From contig NZ_OBEI01000001.1 of assembly GCF_900215515.1 (NCBI RefSeq), positions 248,001-312,000 of the forward strand: DNA of 64,000 nt. Reading direction: 5' to 3'. The position numbers and the translations under genes were made by a program. The stretch comes from Persephonella hydrogeniphila (lineage in GTDB: Bacteria; Aquificota; Aquificia; Aquificales; Hydrogenothermaceae). Positions 7,944 to 62,402 of the stretch are shown in pieces (within the stretch, counting starts at the first letter, position 1; each line of letters begins with the position of its first letter). The notes under the pieces are model-generated. The model had not been told where the DNA came from and ran no database searches. It was given only the letters and a program-made list of their open reading frames with translations.

Positions 7944-9227
7944 TTACAGATTTTTGAATGTATCTTCAACAGCATTTAATGTATCACTTATATCTTCCTC
8001 ACTGTGAGCTGTGCTAAGGAAAGAGGCTTCAAACTGTGATGGTGCCAGATAAACACCTCTTTCAAGCATTAATCTATAAAATTTGTTAAATAATTCAAGG
8101 TCTGAGGATTTAGCATCTTCAAAATTTTTCACCTCTTTGTCGGTAAAGAACATAGTTATCATTGAACCTACCCTGTTAACAGTAGCTTTTACACCGTATT
8201 TGTCTATTAGATAATTAAAACCATCTTCTAATTTTTTCCCTTTTTGATCCAACTCAGGATATGGATTTTTCTCTTTGAGAATCTGAAGTTGTCTTAGCCC
8301 GGCAGCCATAGCAAGAGGGTTTCCTGACAGAGTTCCTGCCTGATATACAGGACCTTCCGGGGCGACATGCATCATTATCTCTTTTTTCCCTCCGTATGCT
8401 CCTACAGGCAGACCAGCTCCAATAACTTTTCCCATTGTTGTTAAATCAGGGTCAATTTCATAAAGTTCCTGTGCACCTCCCAGCGCAAGTCTAAATCCTG
8501 TCATCACCTCATCCCATATTAAAAGAGCTCCGTACTCTCTGGTAAGTTCTCTTAACCTTGTATGATACTCTTTTGGTGGAGCTACAACACCCATGTTTCC
8601 GGCAACAGGTTCAAGTATTACACAGGCTATATCATCTCCATGTTTTCTGAAGGCTTCCTCAACAGCATCTATATCGTTATAAGGTAAAACTATAGTTAAC
8701 TGTGCCAGCTCTTCAGGTATTCCGGGAGTTCCGGGAATTCCCAAAGTCGCCACTCCTGAACCAGCAGAGACAAGAAGAGAATCGCCATGCCCGTGATAAC
8801 AGCCTTCGAATTTTATTATCTTCTTTTTCCCTGTGTAGCCCCTTGCAAGTCTAATAGCTGACATGGTTGCTTCTGTTCCAGAATTGACGAATCTGACCAT
8901 TTCAACTGAAGGTACTGCCTCAACAACAGCTTTTGCCATTTCGATCTCAAGCTCTGTCGGAGCACCAAAACTGGTACCATAATTGGAAACATGTTTTATA
9001 GCATTTATTATTTGATCATTGGCATGACCGAGGATAAGTGGTCCCCATGATAATACATAGTCTATAAACTCATTTCCATCTACATCCCATACGCGACTTC
9101 CCTTTCCTTTCTCTATGAAAAGAGGCTCCATCCCCAGAGCTTTGAATGCTCTAACCGGTGAATTAACCCCTCCAACAAGATATTTTTGTGCTTCTTTAAA
9201 CAGTGCTCTAGATTTATCTGTTTTCAT
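7944..9227 (-). CDS. hemL: Glutamate-1-semialdehyde 2,1-aminomutase
   Basis: This 427-residue PLP enzyme converts glutamate-1-semialdehyde to 5-aminolevulinate for haem and other tetrapyrroles in the cytoplasm. Family signatures are clear: [14 protein letters not shown] at residue 19, the [21 protein letters not shown] phosphate-binding region, [11 protein letters not shown], and the PLP lysine in [18 protein letters not shown]. Length is standard. It is the first gene of a three-gene minus-strand transcript, with an extended -10 promoter just upstream. Haem demand fits the two multiheme cytochromes elsewhere in the window. Confidence 0.98.
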
Positions 9228-50264: not shown

Positions 50265-50966
50265 TTAGATGATAATTCTATTTTTTATAAGGGTTTTGAA
50301 AAACTTCTCCATATGATTGGATATAAGTTCAAGATTTACAGAGTATTTAACAGAAATCTCTGTAGAGATTTTATACAGATTTCCTGATTCTAAGCTGTTC
50401 AATATCTCATACAAAAAGTCTGTCAGCTGTATGTATTCTACTTCAAAGCTTTCAGGATTTTGATAAATAATCAGGTTATACCTGCCCTTTTTATGCTTAA
50501 AACTTGTTATTCCTATTTGAGATATATGGTGAACAGGATACTGAAAAACAACAGCTCTTGCAGAGTTTGATAATCTGTAGGTATTTTGCCAGCTGAACTC
50601 AGACTCTTTCAAGGGTACATCCTGATTAAAAATCTCTACCTCAAGCCATTCATACCGGAGCAGATCCTTCAAATATTCTTCATCTTTGAAAACGTCTTTC
50701 TTCTCAATATACTCAATAAAATGAAAAGGCAGATCCTGAAGATACGGGGATGTGAAGTTCTGGCTTGATACGAAGCTTTCTATTAGATCTTCCCATTTAT
50801 CTTCTGTTATTTTTTTCGTCAAAGGAAAAACTGAAGATAAAAATTCATATACTGTATGTCTGATAAGATTTCTGTAGATTTCCAGTCCTTCTTCCGGGAG
50901 ACTTAACGGATTTCCACCTTCTTTGACAGATTTATAAAACTCTTCAATAATCTTTTTATACTGCAT
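50265..50966 (-). CDS. DUF2063 partner protein of the MNIO cassette (HvfC/BufC-like)
   Basis: The 233-residue protein has the N-terminal DUF2063 helical pattern (EGLEIYRNLIRHTVYEFLSSVFPLTKKI, then DLPFHFIEYIE). In MNIO peptide systems this protein binds the precursor peptide and presents it to the DUF692 enzyme. Its start overlaps the MNIO gene stop by 11 bases. Gene order precursor-MNIO-partner matches the BufABC and HvfABC arrangement. Confidence 0.85.
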   Translation of the reverse strand: MQYKKIIEEFYKSVKEGGNPLSLPEEGLEIYRNLIRHTVYEFLSSVFPLTKKITEDKWEDLIESFVSSQNFTSPYLQDLPFHFIEYIEKKDVFKDEEYLKDLLRYEWLEVEIFNQDVPLKESEFSWQNTYRLSNSARAVVFQYPVHHISQIGITSFKHKKGRYNLIIYQNPESFEVEYIQLTDFLYEILNSLESGNLYKISTEISVKYSVNLELISNHMEKFFKTLIKNRIII

Positions 50967-51780
50967 TTTTTACTACTTCCCTTAGATAATCATACTCATT
51001 AAGAAGCTCTCTGTAAGGGGGTATATTGTTATCTCTTTCAAGAAGAACAGGTTTTTTCCCTATTTTTTTCAGTGTAAAAATCAGAAGCTGATAAACAGAC
51101 TGGGAAATTTCAGAACCATGAGTATCTAAAATTAAATCTTCCTTTATTTTTTTATGACCGGCTATATGTATATAAGACACCCACTCTGGTTTTATTTTCT
51201 CTATATACAGATAAGGATCAAACCGGTGATTACAAGAGTTCACATAAACGTTATTTACATCAAGTAGCAATTTACATCCTGTTTTTTCAATTATATATCC
51301 GATAAAGTCTGTTTCTTCCATATCTCCTGAAAGCTCTACATAACTTGATGCATTTTCTAGAGATATCTCTCTACCTAAAAAATCCTGAATAAAAGAAATT
51401 TTTTGAGACATATCTTCAGCAAGCTCCCTGGTAAAGGGGAGGGGAAAAAGATCATAAATATAACTGCCATAGAGAGAAGAAAAACTAAGATGTTCTGAGT
51501 ATATAGAAATCTCATAGTAATCTAAAAAGTCCTTTAACTCTTTTAAGAAATACTTATTAACAGGGTCAGGACTTCCTACAGATAGGGAAAGCCCGTGACA
51601 TACTACAGGAAAATCTTTTCTGATATCTTCAAAAAGTTTTCTAAGATATCCACCTTTTTTAATCCAGTTTTCAGGAGCAATCTCAAACCATTCAGGTTTA
51701 AGGTCATAATCGTGGATATCTTCAATAAAAGCTGTTCTTAATCCTAAGCCTGTACCTTTTATTTCCCCATCGAACCACAT
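50956..51780 (-). CDS. MNIO (DUF692) multinuclear iron oxygenase of a peptide-modification cassette
   Basis: The 274-residue enzyme has the metal-ligand motifs of the MbnB/BufB/HvfB family: WFEIAPENW, CHGLSLSVGSPD, SEHLSF, SLENASSY, LLDVNNVYVNSCNH, HIAGH, DTHGSE and LLERDNNIP. It binds two or three irons and oxidises cysteines of a precursor peptide. The start ATG lies inside the precursor gene, 22 bases before that gene's end, so translation is coupled. The C-terminal region overlaps DUF2063 by 11 bases. Confidence 0.93.
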   Translation of the reverse strand: MWFDGEIKGTGLGLRTAFIEDIHDYDLKPEWFEIAPENWIKKGGYLRKLFEDIRKDFPVVCHGLSLSVGSPDPVNKYFLKELKDFLDYYEISIYSEHLSFSSLYGSYIYDLFPLPFTRELAEDMSQKISFIQDFLGREISLENASSYVELSGDMEETDFIGYIIEKTGCKLLLDVNNVYVNSCNHRFDPYLYIEKIKPEWVSYIHIAGHKKIKEDLILDTHGSEISQSVYQLLIFTLKKIGKKPVLLERDNNIPPYRELLNEYDYLREVVKNAV

Positions 51781-52058
51781 TTTCCACAGGCCATCTCTTT
51801 TACTTTTTCTTTTGTTCCCATAATTTTTTTACACTCTTTCATCTGCTCCATCATTTCTTTTCCACATTTCATCTCTTCCATCATCTTCCTGCAACTTTCC
51901 ATTTTCTCTTTCATCTCTTTGCCACATTTCATCTCCCCAGATGCCAGTAGAACCCTGCTGTCTGATACCTTCCCCTGAGAATAATCTACTACAGATGCCT
52001 GTGAACCTATAAATGCAACTCCTATAGCTGTAGAAACAGCTGTTAATTTCTTTCTCAT
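51759..52058 (-). CDS. Met/Cys-rich precursor peptide of the MNIO cassette
   Basis: The 99-residue product has a signal-like N-terminus (MRKKLTAVSTAIGVAFIGSQ), a polar spacer, and a core from residue 42 with six cysteines (45, 56, 65, 76, 91, 94) and twelve methionines but no histidine. Residues 43-62 and 63-82 are two copies of a 20-residue unit with C-x10-C, each beginning MKCGKEM. Three K-C-G motifs occur, including GKCGSM near the end, echoing the EGKCG motif modified in HvfA-type peptides. Position before the DUF692 gene makes it the substrate. Copper binding is inferred from composition. Strong GGAGG site upstream. Confidence 0.8.
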   Translation of the reverse strand: MRKKLTAVSTAIGVAFIGSQASVVDYSQGKVSDSRVLLASGEMKCGKEMKEKMESCRKMMEEMKCGKEMMEQMKECKKIMGTKEKVKEMACGKCGSMGK

Positions 52059-52085
52059 AATCTTTTCCTCCTTTTACTACATTAG

Positions 52086-52100
52086 ATAGTAGCTAACTAT
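52086..52100. promoter_or_regulatory. Operator-like palindrome on the precursor promoter
   Basis: ATAGT-AGCTA-ACTAT has perfect 5-bp arms around a near-palindromic centre and overlaps the -10 element. A repressor here would block the MNIO cassette promoter. Which regulator binds is unknown; none is encoded next to the cassette. Confidence 0.5.
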
Positions 52101-52123
52101 ACAGTAAAAATATGTTTTGTCAA
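52096..52123 (-). promoter_or_regulatory. Promoter of the MNIO cassette
   Basis: On the minus strand TTGACA (52123-52118), a 16-base spacer and TATAGT (52101-52096) give a near-consensus promoter. The start is expected near 52089, about 30 bases upstream of the precursor ATG at 52058. Confidence 0.75.
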
Positions 52124-52134
52124 CCTTAATTTTT

Positions 52135-53769
52135 TTAAGTCTTGAATCTTTCTAACATCTCTACTAACTCTTCTGTTTCTCTTTCCAACTGAGAAATTGT
52201 ATCTGTTATTTCTCTAATATCCCGTGCAGAAGCTTTCACAATCTCAGAATAGCTATTTATCTCATTGTATATCTGACTCAATAGACTGTTCTCATTTTTA
52301 ACTTCCTGTCTTATACTGTTTCCTACATCAGTTACTATATTAATTTTGTCTACTATCTCATCAAAAACAATTTTCGTTTTTTGTGCTATTTCCACTCCTT
52401 CTTCTACACTTTCTTTCGCATTACTCATTTCTATCTTTGCATTTTTTGTTTCTATCTGTAATGTTTCAATTATATGATTTATCTCTTCTGTAGCTTTTCT
52501 TGTTCGTTCAGCAAGATTTCTCACCTCATCAGCAACAACAGCGAAACCTTTTCCAGCTTCCCCTGCCCTTGCTGCCTCTATTGCTGCATTCAATGCCAGA
52601 AGATTTGTTTGATTGGCAAGCTCATTTATGACCTTTGTTATTTTTCCTATCTCTTCTGAAGAAACAGAGAGATTATCTATTTTTTCTTCTAATAACTCAG
52701 CTTTTTCCCTGATTTTGTTTATCTTCTCTATAGTGTTCTCGATACTTTCCTTTCCATCGGAAGCTTTAATCAAAGTGTCTTCAGTTGCATCTTTTAAATT
52801 AGTGTTTACCATAGAATCTATCTTTTTTGCTGCTGTATTTAACTGAGATATCTTGTCAAATAGCAGGGTAAAGGATCTTTCTTGAGCATCAGTTCTTGAT
52901 AGAATCTCTTCTGCCTTTTCTTTTAGGGTTGTTGCCATTTTAAAGATAAAGGCTGTATTATTCTTTACTTTAACAAATATCTCATTTAATGCTTCCATCA
53001 AATTATTGAAATATCTTGATATCAGCGATATTTCATCTTTTCCATCTTCTTCCATTCTTATTGTCAGATCACCTTCAGCTGCTTTTACAAAGTTGGAGAC
53101 AAACTGTTCTATAGGTCTGGAAATAGTTGTTATTATCCCAAATACAATACCGAAAATCACAATCAGAGATACCGGAACTCCTATATATATCATCTCTTTT
53201 ATAGAAGATATATTTTCTTCTACTTTTTCAAATCCTTGATTGAAATATTTCAGTTTTAACTGTTCTAATTTGTTAAAGTATTTTCGTGCTTCTTCTGCGA
53301 GGGGTGTAGCCCTTTTATGATACTCAGGATAAGCCTTATATCTCTCTTCAGGAGGAAGGTTCTCTAAACCTTTCACAAGTTCATAACCATCTTTTACAAA
53401 TGCAAGCGTAGCTCTCTTGCTTTTAAGTATTAGCTGCTTTTCTTCTTCAGATTGGGCTGTATTTAATAAACGATCAAAGTTGTTCTCTATTCTACTAAGC
53501 CTTTGCTCAAATTTTTTAATATCTTTATTAAAATCTGCACCAAGCATAATATTCCTTGTAAGACGGCTTATATAATTAACATCTCTATTTATCTCCAGTA
53601 CAAGAACCTGACCCAGAACTGCTTTATTTTTCAGCTCTGTAAAACTGCTTTCGATCTTGTTCAGGTAGAGAAAAGTAAGTGAGGCCATAACAATATATGA
53701 AAGAACCACAATAATAAGCGTGAAAATTAATTTTGCTTTTATTGAAAACTTTCTGAGCAAACTCATCAT
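52135..53769 (-). CDS. Methyl-accepting chemotaxis protein
   Basis: The 544-residue receptor has membrane segments at about 13-33 and 193-213, enclosing a helical sensor (four-helix-bundle type) that probably faces the periplasm. A HAMP domain follows (to about 270) and then the signalling hairpin whose tip reads [38 protein letters not shown]. No CheR/CheB pentapeptide is seen at the C-terminus. A sigma-28-type promoter precedes it. CheB and CheR are encoded at 60008-62402. Confidence 0.95.
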
Positions 53770-53921: not shown

Positions 53922-54179
53922 ATGGACAGTATAATTAGTATTTTATTGTCGATAGTAGAGATTTTTGATAACGGTATAAAAGCCTTTGAGCCTTATCAGG
54001 GAAGTGTTTCTATGGATGAAAAACAGTACACAGCCATGCAAGGTATTATACATTTTATAGGCTGGACTGTTGCGATAGGAATAATAATATGGGTCTTTAG
54101 ATATATGAAAAAACATTCACAGCAGGATGAAAGAATGAAAAAATACTACTCAGAAGAGGATAAAAAACAGTCAGAATAA
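53922..54179 (+). CDS. Small single-span membrane protein of unknown function
   Basis: The 85-residue protein has one clear membrane segment (about 43-62, FIGWTVAIGIIIWVFRYM) and possibly an N-terminal amphipathic helix, then a charged C-terminal tail. I do not recognise the family. It has its own promoter, is divergent from the chemoreceptor gene, and overlaps the convergent cytochrome gene by 9 bases. Confidence 0.65.
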   Translation: MDSIISILLSIVEIFDNGIKAFEPYQGSVSMDEKQYTAMQGIIHFIGWTVAIGIIIWVFRYMKKHSQQDERMKKYYSEEDKKQSE

Positions 54180-55085
54180 AAATTCTTTCTCAAAAACTTT
54201 TTCTCTTTTTTCCATCCAGGAGAGTCTTCTATTTATTAATATCTTTAATCTGTCTATCTTCCTATCTTTATAAAAAACAAACTCCTTCCATTTTTTGTAA
54301 TGGAAACCGTTCCTCGGAGTAATCATCACATTCTCTCTTAAAATCTCTTCACTTTCTTTGAATCCTATTACCACAAGGTAGTATTTAGGGCTTCCCTGCT
54401 GGGCTGTTGGAATGGTATGTGGTACAGAGAGATTTTTAATACTTATTTTCAGAATGTTTTTCTCTTGGAATACTTTTGTCATAAAATCTTTTCCTGACGC
54501 CTTCAGAGGCGGGAAAGAATGATCATGAAGCTCTTTTTTAGAATGAAAGTACATAAAGGGAAATTTCTGTATAAGTCTGTCTTTTTTATGGGGCATATGG
54601 CATTCCTGACAGTTTTGTTTAGCACCAGTTTTTTTCCATATTTTGTATGTCTTCTGATGACATCCTGAACATATCTTTGAAGAGATGTAATCAGGGTCAT
54701 ATGTAGAGTAATGGGGCGGAGAAAAAACTTCATACGGACCATGCATTGAATTGGTCTTTTCTCTGTAATGACATGAAAAACAGTTTACACCTTCTTCTCT
54801 GAGTTTTTCTCTCAATTCCGGTTCTTCTTCAGGTTTTATTTCCAAAGGAGCATGGCAGGAGAGACATTTTGTTTTTGTTCTGTTTTTTGTTTTTTTGATA
54901 AACTCCTCAGAAACCCATGCAGCTGAGTGCCTTGAGTTCTTCCACTGGTTGTATATTTTGGTATGACAGTCTGCACATCTTTTAGAAGGAGGACGCTGTA
55001 GAATGTCCTCCTCTACAAACAGTCTCTCTATTTTTTCACATCCTGTAATAAAAACCAAAAAAACAACCAGTAATACTCTCATCAT
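54171..55085 (-). CDS. Pentaheme cytochrome c lipoprotein
   Basis: The 304-residue protein has a lipoprotein signal (LVVFLVFITGC) and five CxxCH haem sites: CADCH, CLSCH, CFSCH, CSGCH and CQECH. Spacing and the KIYNQWKNSRHSAAW segment after the first haem resemble the cytochrome c554 family (PF13435). The last 120 residues are haem-free and beta-rich. It is probably anchored in a membrane facing the periplasm, carrying electrons in a respiratory or nitrogen/sulfur pathway that the window does not reveal. It starts 4 bases inside the upstream cytochrome gene. Confidence 0.9.
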   Translation of the reverse strand: MMRVLLVVFLVFITGCEKIERLFVEEDILQRPPSKRCADCHTKIYNQWKNSRHSAAWVSEEFIKKTKNRTKTKCLSCHAPLEIKPEEEPELREKLREEGVNCFSCHYREKTNSMHGPYEVFSPPHYSTYDPDYISSKICSGCHQKTYKIWKKTGAKQNCQECHMPHKKDRLIQKFPFMYFHSKKELHDHSFPPLKASGKDFMTKVFQEKNILKISIKNLSVPHTIPTAQQGSPKYYLVVIGFKESEEILRENVMITPRNGFHYKKWKEFVFYKDRKIDRLKILINRRLSWMEKREKVFEKEFLF

Positions 55086-55900
55086 TTACCGAATTTTTCT
55101 TTTAGCAGATAAAGTGTCTGGTGAACATTATGGCACTTAGCACAGTTATTTTCTGATATCCATTTCAGACTCTTGTTTATCTTGATGAGTTCACCATTAA
55201 CTATAGCTTCCCTCAGAGAAGTTATCCTCTTATTTGCCTCTATTCCAAAGTATATTTCTTCTGAGAGCTTTCCTGTATGGCAGTCTCCACACATCTGCGT
55301 CATACCTTCAAACCTTTTTATAAAATTAAATCCTTCTTTTCTTGCTTTTGCCTTTTCTCCATCAACAAGATGTATCCTCATCATCTTCATATTATTTGTC
55401 ATGGCTTTCATATAATCCTCAATAGTGTAATCAAGACCTGTTACAGGATCTTCTATGTTTGTTCCGGAAAAATCAGGGGCATGAAATTTTACTTTCGCAG
55501 ATAGTCTGTATGCCTTATGACATTGCACACAGGATTTTCCTACTGCCTGTATAGAGCTCATTGCGAGAGATTTATTCTTTGATTTAACAGCTTCAACAAG
55601 ATTTTTAACCTCTTTTTTCTTCAGAACCTTATCCCATTTTTTCACCATCTTCCCTATTTTCAGGTAGTTTCCTTGTAATCTTTCTGCCCATTTTTGTGCA
55701 TTTTGCCAGTTGTTTTCCTTTATATTCGAAACAACACCTGTTATAGATGTGGAAAGCATATGCATCAGCTCAACAAATTCCATTCTTTCAGACTTTGGGG
55801 GATAGTAATTGGACAGTTCTTCAGGGACATCCTTCAGTCTCAGATTTTTTGCATAGGAAATAGTTGAGATAATAAGAAGTAGTACAAGTATTTTTCTCAT
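55082..55900 (-). CDS. Secreted triheme cytochrome c with a cytochrome c'-like part
   Basis: The 272-residue protein has a signal peptide (1-17) and three haem sites: CVQCHKAYR near 126, CGDCH and CAKCH. The first domain (about 40-135) is a helical bundle ending in C-x2-C-H-K-x-Y-R, the cytochrome c' signature. The second half repeats a similar helical pattern with the other two haems. It overlaps the pentaheme gene by 4 bases, so the two are expressed together and probably exchange electrons. Confidence 0.88.
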   Translation of the reverse strand: MRKILVLLLIISTISYAKNLRLKDVPEELSNYYPPKSERMEFVELMHMLSTSITGVVSNIKENNWQNAQKWAERLQGNYLKIGKMVKKWDKVLKKKEVKNLVEAVKSKNKSLAMSSIQAVGKSCVQCHKAYRLSAKVKFHAPDFSGTNIEDPVTGLDYTIEDYMKAMTNNMKMMRIHLVDGEKAKARKEGFNFIKRFEGMTQMCGDCHTGKLSEEIYFGIEANKRITSLREAIVNGELIKINKSLKWISENNCAKCHNVHQTLYLLKEKFGK

Positions 55901-61571: not shown

Positions 61572-62402
61572 ATGAAAAAACTACAATCAGAGGAGCTAAA
61601 AAAAATCAGAGATCTGATCCAGCTGAAATCAGGTATATCCATAAAAGAAAAAAAGTTCGAAATCATTCACAGGAAAAAAATAGAAAAACTAATCAGTGAA
61701 GAGGGATATTCAGATTTCAAAACTTTTTACCACGATATTGTTTACAACAGAAAACCTGAGCTTATTCAGAAACTATACAATATAGTAACAATAAATGAGA
61801 CTTACTTTTTTAGAGAAAATGAACATTTCCGCATCCTGACTGAGAAGATTCTACCTGAGATAAACAGCATAAGGCCAAAGGGAGAAACTATAAATATCTT
61901 GAGTGCTCCCTGTTCAACAGGAGAAGAAGTCTACTCAATTCTTATTCAGCTGCTTGAAGAAAACAGGTTGATAAAAGAGAGAGATTTTATGCTTTTAGGT
62001 ATAGATATAGACTCTCAGGTCATAAAAGAAGCTAAAAAAGGTGTATACACAGAAAGCAGCATGAGAAATACCCCAGAAAAAATAAAATCCAGATACTTTA
62101 AAAATGCAGGAAATCTATACCATATAGACAAAAAACTGAAAGATTCTGTCTCTTTCGAAAATGTAAATGTTTTAGACAGATACAAAATGAAAAAATTAGG
62201 AAAGTTTGATGTTATTTTTTCAAGAAATATGCTTATTTATTTTGAGGAAAATGTACGCAAAGAAGTTATCGCAAACTTTTACAGCATGCTAAAATCAGAT
62301 GGATATCTCATACTGTCCCATGTAGAACGCATACCAGAATCTATCCAGCTTTTTAAAAAAATAAAAATAGGGAATTCTATAATATACAAGAAAAACAGTT
62401 AA
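61572..62402 (+). CDS. cheR: Chemotaxis methyltransferase CheR
   Basis: The 276-residue enzyme methylates chemoreceptors. It has the N-terminal CheR helical domain, NETYFFRENEHF, the SAM motif LSAPCSTGEEVYSI, LGIDIDSQVIKEAKKGVY and VIFSRNMLIYFEE. All catalytic regions are present. Its stop overlaps the opposing bioA stop by 4 bases. Together with cheB it forms an adaptation pair far from cheA or cheW. Confidence 0.96.
   Translation: MKKLQSEELKKIRDLIQLKSGISIKEKKFEIIHRKKIEKLISEEGYSDFKTFYHDIVYNRKPELIQKLYNIVTINETYFFRENEHFRILTEKILPEINSIRPKGETINILSAPCSTGEEVYSILIQLLEENRLIKERDFMLLGIDIDSQVIKEAKKGVYTESSMRNTPEKIKSRYFKNAGNLYHIDKKLKDSVSFENVNVLDRYKMKKLGKFDVIFSRNMLIYFEENVRKEVIANFYSMLKSDGYLILSHVERIPESIQLFKKIKIGNSIIYKKNS

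Follow-up and report, generated by a model that had tools for sequence, protein, structure and literature searches.

Organization of the cassette

The window (the whole 64-kb stretch of DNA that was analysed) carries three overlapping genes on its minus strand, coding in succession for a candidate precursor peptide, an MNIO enzyme and a DUF2063 partner (Table 1). The final 22 bases of the precursor gene form the start of the MNIO gene, and 11 bases are shared between the end of the MNIO gene and the start of the partner gene. This is the gene order of hvfABC and bufABC, as the earlier note had claimed, and Pfam bears the assignment out: both the MNIO (308 bits against PF05114, cut-off 25) and its partner (47.8 bits against DUF2063, cut-off 27.2) score above the respective cut-offs. 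The partner also reaches 24.7 with NGO1945_C (Pfam), just below the cut-off of 27. Among NCBIfam models, HvfB is the best for the MNIO (320.5, cut-off 360), followed by BufB (282, cut-off 310), and HvfC is the best for the partner (117.5, cut-off 142). The MNIO resembles structure 3bww (E 2.8e-57) and the partner structure 3dee (E 8.6e-11). The precursor matched no Pfam or NCBIfam family and gave no match to DUF2282 at E up to 1. Since all three proteins stay below the curated NCBIfam cut-offs, the cassette is to be regarded as a relative of the hvf and buf systems rather than as a curated member of either.

Table 1. Features of the cassette and regulator genes at homologous loci (positions refer to the window unless a locus is given)
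Feature	Position	Strand	Basis
Precursor gene, 99 aa, type A family	51759..52058	-	ORF; conserved in 8 genomes, each time directly upstream of MNIO
Probable Sec signal peptide, residues 1-21: basic N-terminus, then a hydrophobic stretch, with S-Q-A resembling a cleavage site at its end	51996..52058	-	Inspection
Conserved GKVS[DE][ST]R motif, residues 29-35	51954..51974	-	Alignment of 8 homologues
Repeat 1, residues 43-62, MKCGKEMKEKMESCRKMMEE	51873..51932	-	Internal repeat; one-sided Met/Cys p 0.0026
Repeat 2, residues 63-82, MKCGKEMMEQMKECKKIMGT	51813..51872	-	60% identity to repeat 1; one-sided Met/Cys p 0.009
C-terminal EMACGKCGSM motif, residues 88-97	51768..51797	-	C91, G92, C94 and G95 invariant; aligns with type B C-terminal motif
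MNIO enzyme, 274 aa, PF05114, HvfB-like	50956..51780	-	Pfam, HvfB model, 3bww
HvfC-like partner, 233 aa, DUF2063 and C-terminal RRE-like domain	50265..50966	-	DUF2063, HvfC model, 3dee
Promoter-like site TTGACA-16-TATAGT, 5' of precursor	52096..52123	-	11/12 consensus positions; consensus match only
Ribosome-binding-like AGGAGG, 5' of precursor ATG	52068..52073	-	Sequence itself; GGAGG also in homologues
Crp/Fnr-like regulators	L044:7517-8215, L045:7395-8114, L048:593-1288		By eye
Crp/Fnr-like regulators, further loci	L051:7164-7859, L055:2959-3642, L058:11145-11408		By eye

The precursor and its family

The composition of the precursor is as previously described, with six cysteines (positions 45, 56, 65, 76, 91 and 94, spaced by 11, 9, 11, 15 and 3), twelve methionines besides the initiator and no histidine. 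The two 20-residue units recognised at the same time are also real by our measures: they share 60% identity as protein and 68% as DNA, and an internal repeat of equal strength arose in one of 20,000 shuffles of the precursor core. The further claim that the peptide is unlike the EGKCG and DUF2282 types holds in part. It does fall outside the descriptions of EGKCG-repeat, DUF2282, Buf2 and CxxxxC precursors, but KCG occurs in it three times and EGKCG, which it does not have, is present once in the homologue from genome G001.

On a helical wheel, C45, M49, M53, C56, M59 and M60 of the first repeat fall inside an arc of 120 degrees, and C65, M69, M73, C76 and M80 of the second inside 80 degrees, with M70 off that face. 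The permutation p value for such one-sidedness is 1e-4 for the two repeats jointly (single values in Table 1) and below 0.007 for the first repeat of each of the seven other homologues; the segment was picked after seeing the sequence, starting from the first Cys, and wider segments give p values of 0.03-0.05. AlphaFold2 models the precursor poorly (pLDDT 46, pTM 0.23) and places helices, at very low confidence, at residues 45-62 and 67-80. It is therefore an argument from sequence that puts most of the Met and Cys of each repeat on the same side of a putative helix.

The MNIO served as the query for a whole-genome search, and precursor homologues were read upstream of each relative that it found within the same bacterial family. 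In an alignment of the eight members of this precursor family, here called type A, a probable signal peptide (ending at the same place in ALA, AMA, SIA, SKA, SHA or AQA, by inspection of the eight homologues) is followed by a near-fixed GKVS[DE][ST]R motif, a number of CGKEMKEKMKECKKMM-like repeats that varies, and a C-terminal KEMxCGxCG. The GKVS[DE][ST]R motif, in which G29, K30, V31, S32 and R35 are invariant, sits between the signal peptide and the Cys/Met region and is a possible recognition segment. Both the repeat count and the middle section differ among homologues; the alignment marks the '2 x 20' architecture as a trait of the species, not of the family. Family members have 5-8 cysteines each, and the invariant columns comprise five cysteines (45, 56, 76, 91 and 94) and the methionines at 43, 49, 60, 73 and 89.

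The earlier note had suggested a search of MNIO neighbourhoods in Aquificota, and this was fruitful: the type A profile matches 8 of 136 Aquificota genomes, all of them Hydrogenothermaceae and in each case directly upstream of an MNIO. Precursor, MNIO and DUF2063 partner occur in the same eight of the 41 Hydrogenothermaceae genomes, and the other 33 have none of the three. For one pair this would correspond to p = 1e-8 if genomes were independent; the eight are related and spread over four genera, and the co-occurrence is taken as support that carries no clean probability. The distribution within the family is thus patchy, and type A precursors were seen nowhere else among the genomes sampled. 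The 'thermophile-specific' class of the earlier note accordingly becomes, in this sample, a class restricted to one family that includes thermophiles. A profile search of a 391-genome sample reaching beyond Aquificota gave no further clear match, no plasmid relatives of the precursor were found, and comparison with a Moraxella KCG-type precursor yielded nothing meaningful. Where cysteine precursors could be read beside MNIOs of the other sampled phyla, they differ, and none is Met-rich like type A. Weak profile matches outside the eight genomes (E 0.01-0.1) were set aside, since most of them fall in long reading frames or in a frame that is interrupted by a stop. Some members gave zinc-ribbon Pfam matches (best E 0.00085), which were ascribed to chance CxxC-like spacing.

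The MNIO enzyme and its probable choice of cysteines

MNIOs paired with type A precursors form one clade (support 99/99), and the expected iron-binding and catalytic residues are invariant in the 23 MNIOs compared, including H62, H97, E142, D174, N176, H185, H209, D219, H221, E248 and D250, the last of which corresponds to D249 of FonB. Substrate selection in FonB has been assigned to R15, R16 and F250 (PMC13097082). R15 is retained in the window MNIO. The position of R16 is occupied by Thr in the window enzyme, by T, S, L or R in type A enzymes in general and by Y or F in type B enzymes (see below), and that of F250 by Asn in all Aquificota MNIOs. Arg and Phe stand at these two positions in the KCG-type plasmid MNIOs (n=2), and K or S and D or G, respectively, in MNIOs with Buf2-like precursors (n=3). 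Asn after the catalytic Asp is likewise found in the MNIO of the Pectobacterium plasmid Drgb3 (L062), which belongs to a cassette of CxxxxC type that also has genes for MBL-fold and DoxX proteins and is flanked by a cytochrome oxidase gene.

FonB as a rule requires Gly or Ala after the modified Cys. In front of the Cys it accepts Lys, Ala, Arg or Thr; Glu in that position blocks it, as does a charged residue following the Cys (PMC13097082). C45, C65, C91 and C94 of the window precursor fit this rule, since each has Gly after it and Lys or Ala before it. By the same rule C56 (S-C-R) and C76 (E-C-K) would probably remain thiols or form a disulfide. The modified sites could, however, differ from those of FonB, given the changes of R16 to Thr and F250 to Asn. 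We therefore considered that the peptide belongs to the same class with other chemistry or sites (all six cysteines, the cysteines not followed by Gly, or a different product) as a result of a different selectivity pocket. Besides these two residues, of which the Asn is common to every type A enzyme, the invariance of C56 and C76 in the family would be expected of sites that matter, and an F250D change in FonB relaxed its substrate choice (PMC13097082). On the other hand, it is the C-G cysteines that multiply and vary in number from one homologue to another, in the manner of modified EGKCG sites, and the non-Gly pair stays constant, and on balance we think a different set of sites or products unlikely.

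A second type of precursor in Aquificota

The remaining Aquificota MNIOs, those of genus g17 and of a second cassette in G014, are accompanied by a different precursor, here called type B (loci L010, L011 and L051-L058). Where readable, it begins with a signal peptide, contains EGKCAG and TCAGM units and has TCAGPGGCGGKM at its C-terminus; it did not match NCBIfam where tested. Two g17 loci are less informative, as no clear precursor was read in G073 and G078 holds an MNIO fragment only, at a contig end. Type B resembles type A in that its MNIOs, sisters of the type A enzymes, also have Asn after the catalytic Asp and in its similar C-terminal KEMxC...CG. It differs in its EGKCAG and TCAGM units, in the absence of the GKVS[DE][ST]R motif, in the divergent orientation of the precursor, which lies on the strand opposite to its MNIO and is often followed by DoxX, and in its low Met content (4-9% of the mature region, against 10-16% in type A and 2% in the ORFs of the window). 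Profile-profile comparison connects the two types (E 4.5e-6, probability 86.5%), and it is chiefly their C-terminal motifs that align; as the alignment is of low complexity with few effective sequences, kinship of type A and type B is weakly indicated and serves only as a lead.

Homologous cassettes with another precursor, an observation that the earlier note had said would refute its proposed new class, do thus exist, but their enzymes lie outside the type A clade. This points to matching of enzyme and precursor and leaves the proposed class standing. A further idea is that the small ORF is an unmodified Met/Cys metal-binding peptide which shares the operon and is not an MNIO substrate. Such a peptide is conceivable, as helices rich in Met could bind Cu(I) even when unmodified and no HMM ties the precursor to a known precursor family. 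We nevertheless consider it very improbable, because in the genomes sampled the precursor was never seen without MNIO and DUF2063, no other candidate precursor was found among the ORFs of the window cassette, and its C-terminal motif aligns with those of type B precursors beside the sister MNIOs.

Several loci with type B cassettes (L051, L053, L054, L056, L057 and L059) have neighbours in common that look, by eye, like DsrE-type, QueF, glutaredoxin-like, CcdA-like, YkgJ-like and rhodanese proteins; this hints at a context of sulfur or redox chemistry.

Possible function

Taken together, it seems likely that the locus is a captophorin/bufferin-class RiPP operon, the product of which would carry thiooxazoles at its C-G cysteines, be exported and buffer Cu(I) or another soft metal. 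The Sec signal of the precursor would double as a leader, through which the DUF2063/RRE partner would bind it. The diiron MNIO would oxidise the Gly-followed cysteines C45, C65, C91 and C94, each losing four hydrogens to become a 5-thiooxazole. After export of the modified peptide by Sec, thiooxazole sulfurs, Met thioethers and Cys thiols on the helix face would bind the metal and buffer it. For the window precursor we infer the modification and its sites, the export and the copper role from relatives: the MNIO-DUF2063 systems characterised so far form 5-thiooxazole and bind Cu, and they are the source of the chemistry, of the leader function given to the signal peptide and of the role in copper handling (PMC13097082, PMC12452194, PMC13419390). 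In favour of the RiPP reading we counted the gene set, the co-occurrence, the invariant catalytic residues, the C-G sites and the one-sided Met/Cys arrangement. Against it we counted the T16 and Asn changes, the scores below curated cut-offs, the poor AlphaFold model, the lack of any recognised copper gene next to the cassette, and the missing DoxX and Crp/Fnr neighbours.

The same biosynthesis might also serve a purpose other than copper in a hot habitat rich in sulfur, such as dealing with redox stress, with reactive sulfur or with a different soft metal. We regard this as possible but rather improbable: copper is bound by the characterised relatives, a composition with much Met and no His is suited to Cu(I) or Ag(I), and no sulfur genes are among the window cassette's own neighbours, even though no copper gene was recognised nearby, type B loci have the sulfur- and redox-type neighbours mentioned above, and Antoine et al. 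expect roles beyond copper for many such peptides (PMC12452194). The copper-buffering RiPP may be taken one step further. As a speculative possibility, offered tentatively, the peptide might be a helix-presented buffer in which Cu(I) is arranged in an ordered row by three kinds of ligand together (thiooxazole, thioether and thiol), and its maker would be an MNIO subclade that follows substrate rules of its own. Each repeat would form a short helix; its ligand-bearing face would then run in the order modified Cys, Met, Met, unmodified Cys, Met, and Asn after the catalytic Asp would be the mark of the subclade.

Relation to known systems

The operon is of a known kind. It shares with captophorin/MNIO-PME1 cassettes an MNIO, a DUF2063 partner with an RRE-like domain and, before the MNIO, a Cys-rich precursor with a Sec signal (by inspection). 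Its closest likeness is to the oxazolin/fontiphorin/gonophorin systems (HvfABC, FonABC; Buf_EGKCG, captophorins), with which it shares gene order, signal peptide, KCG sites and HvfB as best NCBIfam match. The window precursor nonetheless lacks repeated EGKCG and 17-residue repeats, and the window type has Met-rich helical-type repeats, two non-Gly cysteines and changed R16/F250 positions. With bufferins 1 and 2 (BufABC) it shares the core genes and a likely copper role. It differs from both in the BufB score below cut-off, from bufferin 1 in the lack of a DUF2282 match, and from bufferin 2, which has a fixed 6 or 12 cysteines, is of Cys-Lys type and has Asp after the catalytic Asp, in having 5-8 cysteines and Asn; nor does the precursor contain a CYGxNxCKG-like Buf2 pattern, seen beside related MNIOs. 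The CxxxxC motif of CxxxxC precursors is absent as well. Methanobactin (MbnB and MbnC, precursor without signal peptide) is more distant, as the window MNIO scores 54 bits with the NCBIfam MbnB model against a cut-off of 325 and the partner is HvfC-like. Copper storage proteins and Met-rich copper proteins have Cys or Met aligned along helices as Cu(I) ligands; compared with this general description, the window peptide is distinguished by its accompanying biosynthetic enzyme, and no relation to them in sequence was seen.

Antoine et al. 2025 report hundreds of unclassified Cys precursors before MNIOs, and the ORFs of their Table S2 are described as small, with a signal peptide and 1-18 cysteines, preceding MNIOs of the bufferin supercluster (PMC12452194). 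The window precursor may be among these unclassified ORFs; the main text of that paper neither describes it nor mentions Aquificota, and a literature search that combined MNIO with Aquificota gave no paper. As far as checked, the novelty lies in the precursor family, in its Met/Cys stripe and in the matched enzyme clade, which has specificity residues of its own. The peptide is probably a thermophile's variant of copper-buffering peptides that are already known. The candidate copper-peptide RiPPs of Aquificota are thereby extended by a precursor family of which the literature searched gave no description. The type A and type B sets of enzyme and precursor also offer matched pairs for testing how MNIOs choose cysteines, and proteins from a group that contains thermophiles may help to solve the structure of an MNIO-partner-precursor complex.

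Genomic surroundings and regulation

In G001, G017 and G024 the precursor gene has DoxX in front of it; no DoxX was found in the window's genome. Crp/Fnr-like regulators (recognised by eye, Table 1) adjoin the cassette in G017, G024 and G014 and at three type B loci, and may control the cassettes they adjoin. The Crp/Fnr homologues of the window's genome are distant (31% identity at best) and located elsewhere. Upstream of the G018 precursor (L047, about 8550-8695) there is a short frame, MEKIWYFNRLDV, resembling the start of this Crp/Fnr-like protein; it may be what is left of a regulator gene that was lost.

An imperfect palindrome, ACTATCTAATGTAGT, lies at 52076-52090 of the window, directly behind the promoter-like site, and similar palindromes precede two homologous precursors. 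The corresponding pattern ACTA-n7-TAGT (G000, G034, G031) was rejected as an operator, as its refined form has 8 genome sites against 13 for the reversed control; the only other palindrome site in the window (61772-61786) falls within apparently coding sequence, and the palindrome was treated as chance. Upstream of the cassette is a chemoreceptor-like gene (52135-53769), and beyond it, on the same strand, are two multi-CxxCH (multihaem cytochrome-like) genes (54171-55900).
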